Positions 28,701 to 32,724 of a DNA stretch of 32,724 nt are shown in pieces (within the stretch, counting starts at the first letter, position 1; each line of letters opens with the position of its first letter). The notes below the pieces were generated by a model, which was not told the DNA's origin, did no database searches, and saw only the letters and a program-made list of their open reading frames with translations. The DNA lies in contig CAJQGZ010000061.1 of assembly GCA_905478065.1 (NCBI GenBank), positions 1 through 32,724 on the forward strand, read 5' to 3'. The position numbers and the translations under genes are program-made. The DNA is from an uncultured bacterium. Lineage in GTDB: Bacteria; Fidelibacterota; Marinisomatia; Marinisomatales; UBA1611.

Positions 28701-28734
28701 AAAAAAAAAGCCCTCATATGAGGGCTTTTTTTAA
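28701..28734. terminator. Strong bidirectional intrinsic terminator
   Basis: AGCCCTC and GAGGGCT form a seven-base GC-rich stem around ATAT (28709-28726), flanked by nine A on one side and seven T on the other, so it works on either strand. It most likely ends the transcript of the 76-residue repeat protein on the minus strand, 10 bases after its stop. Confidence 0.85.
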
Positions 28735-28743
28735 GAACATATT

Positions 28744-28974
28744 CTATTTCTTACGACCTCTGGCCATTGGTGATCTTGAGACATCACCATCTTTATCAAT
28801 AAAATATAGAAAACCAGACTCTCTGGTAACACCAGCTGTAGAAACTTTTTCAGCATTCCCACCGCCCTTACCAGCACGAGCCATTTGCGAACGAGATACA
28901 TCGCCTTCTTTATCAAGATAGTATAGGTATCCTTTTTCTTTAGATACACCTGTATTTTTTACTTTTTCAGCCAT
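28744..28974 (-). CDS. 76-residue two-repeat small protein
   Basis: Two copies of one unit, residues 3-36 and 42-75, joined by a glycine-rich linker (KGGGN). Of 34 aligned positions 21 are identical. The core reads G(Y/F)LY(Y/F)(L/I)DK(E/D)GDVSRS followed by xMAR. There is no signal peptide, membrane helix or cysteine; the protein is very basic at the ends (final RGRKK), which suggests a cytoplasmic nucleic-acid or ribosome contact, but no function is known to me. GGAGG seven bases before the ATG is an optimal ribosome binding site, and the gene stands alone with its own promoter and terminator, which indicates strong expression. Confidence 0.88.
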   Translation of the reverse strand: MAEKVKNTGVSKEKGYLYYLDKEGDVSRSQMARAGKGGGNAEKVSTAGVTRESGFLYFIDKDGDVSRSPMARGRKK

Positions 28975-29049
28975 TAAAGCCTCCGATTATTATTTGATTT
29001 GTTTTTTATGGTAGTGGTTAGAGTAAAATCTCACTCCCTCTGCCTATTA

Positions 29050-29079
29050 ATAGTACGAAATTTTAAAGGTTCATGTCAA
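29050..29079 (-). promoter_or_regulatory. Sigma-70-type promoter of the 76-residue protein
   Basis: On the minus strand the -35 is TTGACA (29079-29074, full consensus), then an 18-base spacer and the -10 TACTAT (29055-29050). Transcription from about 29043 gives a leader of roughly 70 bases before the ATG at 28974. The rest of the gap to the tRNA holds CGAGG-AGA-CCTCG (a short palindrome near 29089-29101) without a T-run. Confidence 0.7.
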
Positions 29080-31016: not shown

Positions 31017-31847
31017 TTACTTTTCTGAATTAAAATCTAAAGAGATTGAATTTACGCAGTACCTTAATCCAGAAGGCTGAGGGCCATCATTAAATACATG
31101 TCCTAAATGCCCCCCACAGTTTTCACATGTAATTTCTATACGCTTCATACCAAATGTATTATCCGCTGTCTCTTCAATTTTGTCAGGCAGAGCTTCATAA
31201 AACGCAGGCCAACCGCATCCAGAATCATACTTTGTATCAGAAGAAAATAATTCAGTACCGCAACCAGCGCATTTATACATGCCTTCTTTATCAAACTTAT
31301 CATACTCGCCCGTAAAAGGTTTTTCAGTTCCCTTTTCCCTTAATATATGAAATTCCTCTGGCGTTAATTTTTTTTCCCATTCCTGTTCAGTAACATTTTT
31401 ATCTTTACCCTTTTTTAATTTCATTCCGTTTTCATCTAACCTTTCATTTAAAAGACTAATTAATTGATTTAAATTTTTAATACTATTTATTTCATCCCTA
31501 GAAATTATCTCATTTAACTCCACACCGTCACGAATTATTATAGTTGGAAACTTTAAATTACTTAACTCTTTTTCCAAAGCCGAGACCTTATCTTTATATG
31601 TAAATGTCGATTTGATTGGTAAAGAATTAATATAGTCTGACCATCTTTTTTTTTTCGTAAATGTACCATACGACATAGCACAAAGATTACAGTCGTAAGT
31701 TCCGGGACTGACTATTTTATGAGCAAAATCAATCATTTCATTAACTAAACCACTTTTAGCATTATAAATAAAAATTAATTCTTTATCCCCTACTGAAAAA
31801 ATTGTTGAAGACAATAAAAGCATTGATATATATAATTTATATTTCAT
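31017..31847 (-). CDS. msrB: Exported CxxC domain fused to methionine sulfoxide reductase B
   Basis: A 276-residue fusion. Residues 1-19 look like a signal peptide. Residues about 22-135 are a domain of unknown function (ELIFIYNAKSG, then YDCNLCAMSYGTF with C53 and C56, and FPTIIIRDG) also known as a stand-alone protein in other bacteria. Residues about 152-272 are a complete MsrB domain: zinc cysteines C193, C196, C241 and C244, catalytic C264 (RYCVNS), and C211 in the CGWPAF block. MsrB reduces methionine-R-sulfoxide. Export would make it a periplasmic repair enzyme, and the CxxC domain could deliver electrons. The ATG directly follows the stop of the 56-residue membrane protein. Confidence 0.92.
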   Translation of the reverse strand: MKYKLYISMLLLSSTIFSVGDKELIFIYNAKSGLVNEMIDFAHKIVSPGTYDCNLCAMSYGTFTKKKRWSDYINSLPIKSTFTYKDKVSALEKELSNLKFPTIIIRDGVELNEIISRDEINSIKNLNQLISLLNERLDENGMKLKKGKDKNVTEQEWEKKLTPEEFHILREKGTEKPFTGEYDKFDKEGMYKCAGCGTELFSSDTKYDSGCGWPAFYEALPDKIEETADNTFGMKRIEITCENCGGHLGHVFNDGPQPSGLRYCVNSISLDFNSEK

Positions 31848-32307: not shown

Positions 32308-32724
32308 TTAATTATCAAAATAATCATAATGTTTACCATCTGTTTGAACATCATTTGAATATTTCTCTTCTTTCTCAAGTTTTCCATTTTCAAACCAGTA
32401 AATAAATTTACCATTTTTTTTATCATTTTTATATACTTCTTCTTGAGATTTTTGCCCATTCTCAAACCATTTAATGAGTTTTCCATGCTTTTTATCTTTT
32501 ACATAATTCTCAATCCGCTTTTTCGACCCATTTTCATGATAGTATGTCCATGTTCCATTTTTCTTTCCAAGTTTGTAATTACCTTCTTTGATTTTTTGAC
32601 CTTTTGGTCCCCACCAAACCCATAAACCATCTTTTTCATCTAATTTAAAACTTTTCATAGCCGTCTTAATTCCATCGCCGTTCCATAATGTAGTTTTACC
32701 AAAGAGCTCTCCATCTTTCCATTG
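32308..32724 (-). CDS. MORN_2-repeat (YwqK-like) protein, N-terminus missing
   Basis: The frame stays open through the window end, so the true start lies beyond 32724; an internal ATG at 32658 would begin in the middle of a repeat. Visible are about five repeats of roughly 23 residues with the pattern (N/D)G.(W/L)..(W/Y)..(N/K)G.K..E..Y, such as KNGTWTYYHENGSKK, KHGKLIKWFENGQKS and KNGKFIYWFENGKLE. Repeats of this kind occur in YwqK-family antitoxin-like proteins and in many secreted proteins of FCB bacteria. The signal peptide, if any, is not in view. The last residues are HYDYFDN. Confidence 0.85.
   Translation of the reverse strand, partial: QWKDGELFGKTTLWNGDGIKTAMKSFKLDEKDGLWVWWGPKGQKIKEGNYKLGKKNGTWTYYHENGSKKRIENYVKDKKHGKLIKWFENGQKSQEEVYKNDKKNGKFIYWFENGKLEKEEKYSNDVQTDGKHYDYFDN

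Follow-up and report, generated by a model that had tools for sequence, protein, structure and literature searches.

A 76-residue Marinimicrobia protein belongs to a nameless, very strongly conserved family of bacteria and DPANN archaea that probably binds nucleic acid

By sequence comparison, the 76-residue protein studied here is a member of a very strongly conserved family that carries no name in Pfam or NCBIfam, and the family protein probably binds nucleic acid. We found relatives in hundreds of genomes of poorly studied bacteria and in DPANN archaea, a family far larger than was guessed in the first-pass annotation of the window (the whole 32,724-nucleotide stretch of DNA that was analysed). 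Within Marinimicrobia, the window's phylum, which appears in the records as Fidelibacterota, 109 of 151 genomes were positive, with full-length orthologues 64-100% identical to the window protein. The window's own order had the gene in 53 of 61 genomes, nearly always once and full-length, and whole families of the phylum were without it. In Elusimicrobiota the gene is single-copy and near-universal (78/80 genomes); positive genomes numbered 113 of 148 in Nanoarchaeota (DPANN archaea), 111 of 189 in Omnitrophota and 12 of 55 in Margulisbacteria. When a profile of the 36-residue unit was run against approximately 85,000 species genomes, at least 565 places were confirmed, the best 80 of which lay in Marinimicrobia, Omnitrophota, Woesearchaeota and other Nanoarchaeota, Margulisbacteria, Endomicrobia, Auribacterota and unplaced bacteria. 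Archaeal two-unit proteins were 56-67% identical to the window protein, and units of Elusimicrobiota and Nanoarchaeota shared a mean identity of about 70%. It is unusual for so short a protein to show such identity between bacteria and archaea, to occur in nearly all Elusimicrobiota and still to be nameless in Pfam and NCBIfam; this cross-domain spread is the main point of interest. Searches of plasmids and of named phage genomes by tblastn gave no match with two different queries, and six viral contigs in IMG/VR (L165-L170) were found to encode diverged one- or two-unit relatives.

The gene is present once in this genome (Table 1). Its first-annotated coordinates (28744-28974) were correct; the strand was missing, and the plus strand over these positions is full of stops. 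It had also been said that without homologues in related genomes this would be a chance frame. A chance open reading frame has the small size of the gene in its favour and nothing else, and we give it practically no probability: it is ruled out, since hundreds of genomes from five phyla, among them the 109 of Marinimicrobia, encode a full-length orthologue and since the expression signals are kept across relatives.

Table 1. Features of the 76-residue gene and its flanks, in window coordinates
Feature	Position	Strand	Basis or remark
Coding sequence, 76 aa, MAEKVKNTGVSKEKGYLYYLDKEGDVSRSQMARAGKGGGNAEKVSTAGVTRESGFLYFIDKDGDVSRSPMARGRKK	28744..28974	minus	translation; full-length orthologues
Unit 1, residues 3-36	28867..28968	minus	21/34 identical to unit 2
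Unit 2, residues 42-75	28750..28851	minus	21/34 identical to unit 1
Stop codon	28746-28744	minus	read from sequence
-35 element TTGACA	29074..29079	minus	direct reading; invariant in seven aligned relatives
-10 element TACTAT	29050..29055	minus	18-base spacing from TTGACA; 4/6 to TATAAT
Conserved 16-base leader block CTCTAACCACTACCAT, between promoter and ribosome-binding site	29008..29023	minus	relatives' alignment
Ribosome-binding site GGAGG	28980..28984	minus	direct reading; 5 nt to ATG
Intrinsic terminator, 13-pair hairpin and T-run	28703..28732	minus	starts 11 nt past stop

All of the strong signals first noticed at the gene were present, namely TTGACA, the 18-base spacing, a leader of about 70 nt between promoter and gene, GGAGG and the terminator hairpin. 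Most of the seven aligned relatives have a -10 element of the form TACTAT or TACAAT, and the leader block CTCTAACCACTACCA is almost identical in six of the seven; this block could be a regulatory RNA or a protein site. The aligned relatives keep the terminator hairpin, and in the most distant one both sides of its stem have changed. Because related genomes keep both the TTGACA promoter and the hairpin terminator, we take the gene to be real and separately transcribed. The signal set was also described as unmatched in the window. As to the promoter, exact TTGACA occurs 17 times, only two of these have a -10 with at least four of six matches at 16-18 bases, and the second of the two (plus strand, 20426) faces no gene in the ORF lists. 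With this genome's ribosomal-protein genes as reference, the codon adaptation of the gene is 0.663, the second highest in the window (0.618 for ATP synthase beta), a value to be read with caution as codon bias is weak throughout this genome. Very strong expression, as originally proposed, has the support of these sequence signals, and strong expression is likely. Given the conserved signals and the above-average codon adaptation, the protein may be abundant in the cell. The highest codon adaptation among the window ORFs scored belongs to 32308-32658, which by eye contains repeats of MORN or YwqK type. Another ORF of the window (31017-31847, 276 residues) looks by eye like a fusion with a C-terminal domain of methionine-sulfoxide-reductase-B type.

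The protein is built from two copies of one unit, identical at 21 of 34 positions, while the best of 2000 same-composition shuffles reached 11. This bears out the original description of the repeat. The unit follows the motif V-x-x-x-G-V-[KT]-[KR]-E-x-G-Y-L-Y-[FY]-x-D-K-x-G-[DN]-V-S-R-[AS]-x-M-A-R-G, with near-invariant G, Y/F, L, Y, D/G, K, G, V/I, M and R among 329 units from five phyla. All stand-alone members (189 distinct members, five phyla) carry one or two units. The first-pass annotation had suggested a profile search for one-, two- and multi-unit homologues; the former two exist, and none of the 189 members had three or more units. Single-unit relatives, which it had predicted, were found in Omnitrophota (14/35), Margulisbacteria (4/4 read) and some Nanoarchaeota (15/60), as proteins of approximately 36-80 residues. 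The two-unit form accounts for 66/67 Marinimicrobia and 23/23 Elusimicrobiota proteins, the sole one-unit Marinimicrobia case beginning inside the two-unit pattern and looking truncated (L121). As the two-unit form is common to four phyla, the duplication is not recent, which had been deduced earlier from the divergence of the two copies.

We modelled the two-unit window protein with AlphaFold2 from a 38-row alignment. The model (pLDDT 90.9, pTM 0.76) contains six strands and no helix, with strands at residues 3-6, 16-20 and 26-30 in unit 1 and 42-45, 55-59 and 65-69 in unit 2. A single-unit protein with a tail, modelled from a shallower 15-row alignment, gave three strands and a disordered tail at pLDDT 62.5 and pTM 0.34. 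Together with the rule of one or two units, this contrast between models (pLDDT 91 vs 62) suggests that the working body consists of two units, which would be a homodimer in one-unit proteins and a fused pseudo-dimer here. Foldseek returned no match at E <= 0.001 against PDB and BFVD; fold search handles small beta proteins poorly, so this miss does not prove a new fold. The top Foldseek matches, to the alpha-crystallin (small heat-shock) domain, were rejected (best E = 0.68, TM-score 0.27).

Marinimicrobia came out well resolved in a tree of 151 two-unit proteins over 77 columns, in which many forks were unresolved. Marinimicrobia rows grouped together in 63 of 64 cases; the row drawn outside is 'bacterium Cli_8', whose phylum was assigned by assumption. 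One starred branch held 41 of 44 Nanoarchaeota rows along with four Omnitrophota and two Elusimicrobiota rows. The pattern points to a history of mostly vertical descent within phyla with some exchange between phyla and domains, and a tree of 77 columns settles neither the direction nor the number of transfers between domains. A series from one-unit to fused two-unit proteins would be a clean natural example of dimer fusion.

The computed pI of the window protein is 9.7 (net charge +5.5, no tail), in line with the earlier description of a basic protein. Seven family members ranged from pI 9.4 to 10.6 and from +3.5 to +32 in net charge. Of the proteins examined, 14 of 23 from Elusimicrobiota, 16 of 60 from Nanoarchaeota and 7 of 35 from Omnitrophota have a C-terminal tail of at least 12 residues; these tails are 75-81% K+R+A and predicted to be disordered. 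No Marinimicrobia member examined had a Lys/Ala tail.

Neighbours of the gene differ from phylum to phylum. In Omnitrophota, an aspartate-dehydrogenase-like gene lies directly upstream in 23 of 28 loci and uvrA directly downstream, on the same strand and within 350 nt, in 13 of 28, so that the order on one strand is aspartate-dehydrogenase-like gene, family gene and often uvrA (L267-L286, L085, L096, L110, L130, L140, L147, L150). In some Woesearchaeota the family gene is followed by an ERCC4 helicase-nuclease gene. No ribosomal gene was among the conserved neighbours identified. These phylum-bound neighbours may be mere synteny. Fusions to other domains are rare: a 546-residue Omnitrophota protein (L235:1399-3036) has two units at its N-terminus and an HNH nuclease domain at its end, and in Nanoarchaeota genomes two-unit modules are fused to nitroreductase (L215) and to coiled-coil proteins (L216, L241).

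Nucleic-acid binding is favoured by the Lys/Ala-rich tails of many relatives, by basicity and the invariant basic residues, by the HNH fusion and by the uvrA adjacency in Omnitrophota. Our preferred reading, to which we give nearly even chances, is a small, basic, nucleic-acid-binding protein of auxiliary nucleoid type that acts as a dimer or pseudo-dimer. Each unit of about 34 residues would form its three predicted strands around the motif, and two units would pack as a pair, from two chains in one-unit relatives and within one fused chain here. The invariant Lys and Arg of the hairpins would let the pair bind DNA (or structured RNA) largely irrespective of sequence, and in many relatives the disordered Lys/Ala tail would help in the manner of histone H1. 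The conserved promoter and terminator of its own and the single, near-universal copy in Elusimicrobiota also speak for the nucleoid-type reading, and the protein shares with the nucleoid-associated class its small size, basicity, conservation and chromosomal encoding. Against it, the window protein has a charge of only +5.5 and is tailless, like all Marinimicrobia members examined; the Asp/Asn conserved in the turn is atypical for a DNA-contacting loop; the neighbours vary between phyla; and the nitroreductase fusion points nowhere in particular.

Such a protein would replace neither HU nor histones; it would work beside the former in bacteria and beside the latter in archaea. HU was found in all 151 Marinimicrobia genomes, gene-positive or gene-negative, and its replacement was rejected. 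Histones were detected in 120 of 148 Nanoarchaeota, independently of the family gene (92/21/28/7, p = 0.81), and histone replacement was rejected likewise. With HU universal in Marinimicrobia and histones independent in Nanoarchaeota, no replacement pattern lends support to a chromatin role. HU-family genes averaged 3.1 per Marinimicrobia genome without the family gene and 1.8 with it, a difference for which ancestry alone could be sufficient as the gene-negative genomes come mostly from few families.

Two other functions were weighed against the nucleoid-type reading. As the main alternative, the protein could be an extra ribosomal or ribosome-associated, rRNA-binding component of several lineages: it is small, basic, usually single-copy and slowly evolving, it has a strong-looking promoter of its own and ribosome-like codon use within the window, and many ribosomal proteins have Lys-rich termini. 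We regard this as rather unlikely, because the family spans bacteria and DPANN archaea despite their different ribosomes, the conserved neighbours offer no ribosomal gene, tail length is free to vary and occurrence within phyla is patchy, from the minority of positive Margulisbacteria and the incomplete set of Omnitrophota to the gene-negative families of Marinimicrobia. About equally unlikely is a protein-protein adaptor or enzyme-associated beta module that binds no nucleic acid and whose Lys-rich tails are incidental. The fusions to nitroreductase and coiled-coil proteins, the uncharged-to-mild net charge in Marinimicrobia and the aspartate-dehydrogenase-like neighbour in Omnitrophota would fit such a module; no partner gene is kept between phyla, however, and strong basicity with Lys/Ala tails marks three of the five phyla.

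On a wider and more tentative view, this beta-fold family would be a core nucleic-acid-associated component, of chromatin or the ribosome, in Elusimicrobiota, Omnitrophota, Marinimicrobia, Margulisbacteria and DPANN archaea, passed between domains, with a fold not yet in PDB and a path from single-unit homodimer to fused two-unit chain. If DNA or ribosome binding is true, it would be a basic cell component of lineages, ultra-small symbionts among them, for which metagenomes are nearly the sole source of knowledge. Even if its function is modest, a name for the family would improve the annotation of hundreds of genomes in one step.

The first-pass annotation had regarded the protein as novel unless it matched a characterised family, and none was found in Pfam, NCBIfam and PDB sequence searches. 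No Pfam model reached its cut-off for the window protein and 20 family members, and the NCBIfam and PDB sequence searches gave no credible match. The best Pfam match was FaeA-like (PF04703) at residues 14-33, with 19.2 bits against a cut-off of 20.7; it recurred in 7 of 20 members (best E = 0.0015). FaeA is a winged-helix DNA-binding domain. It was rejected on score and on predicted fold, which here comprises six strands without any helix; the similarity also covers no more than some 20 residues. The weak Pfam matches to FaeA, DotY, GldM_2nd, Proteasome and TetR_N, each sub-threshold or unsystematic, were judged to be chance. PHROG 9154, a phage family of unknown function, was matched weakly by 17 of 20 members (best E = 9e-6). 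The KCG start of some units prompted a check for a zinc ribbon, which was rejected as the commonest Cys column contains 17% Cys (329 units). The unit motif strings did not occur in the literature searched, that on proteomes or chromatin of Elusimicrobium, Omnitrophota, Marinimicrobia and DPANN had nothing on this family, and a paper about unknown gene families from uncultivated taxa (PMC10849945) leaves its phyla unmentioned in the main text.

Among chromatin proteins, the family resembles HU/IHF (PF00216) and H1-like proteins with Lys/Ala tails in being small, basic and often equipped with a disordered tail, and HU coexists with it in the same genomes. HU has a helical core that carries beta arms, whereas the family model is all-beta. 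Membership of HU/IHF was rejected, as PF00216 is absent from the Pfam matches of the 20 members and true HU is encoded separately in the same genomes; the same applies to archaeal histones (PF00808), absent from these matches and separate in Nanoarchaeota. Sul7d and Cren7 (small beta chromatin proteins of archaea), Alba and MC1 are tiny, basic, beta-rich, non-specific nucleic-acid binders. The family differs from them in its build of one or two repeats and in having no Pfam or PDB sequence match and no PDB fold match; if nucleic-acid binding is true, it would work much as they do.
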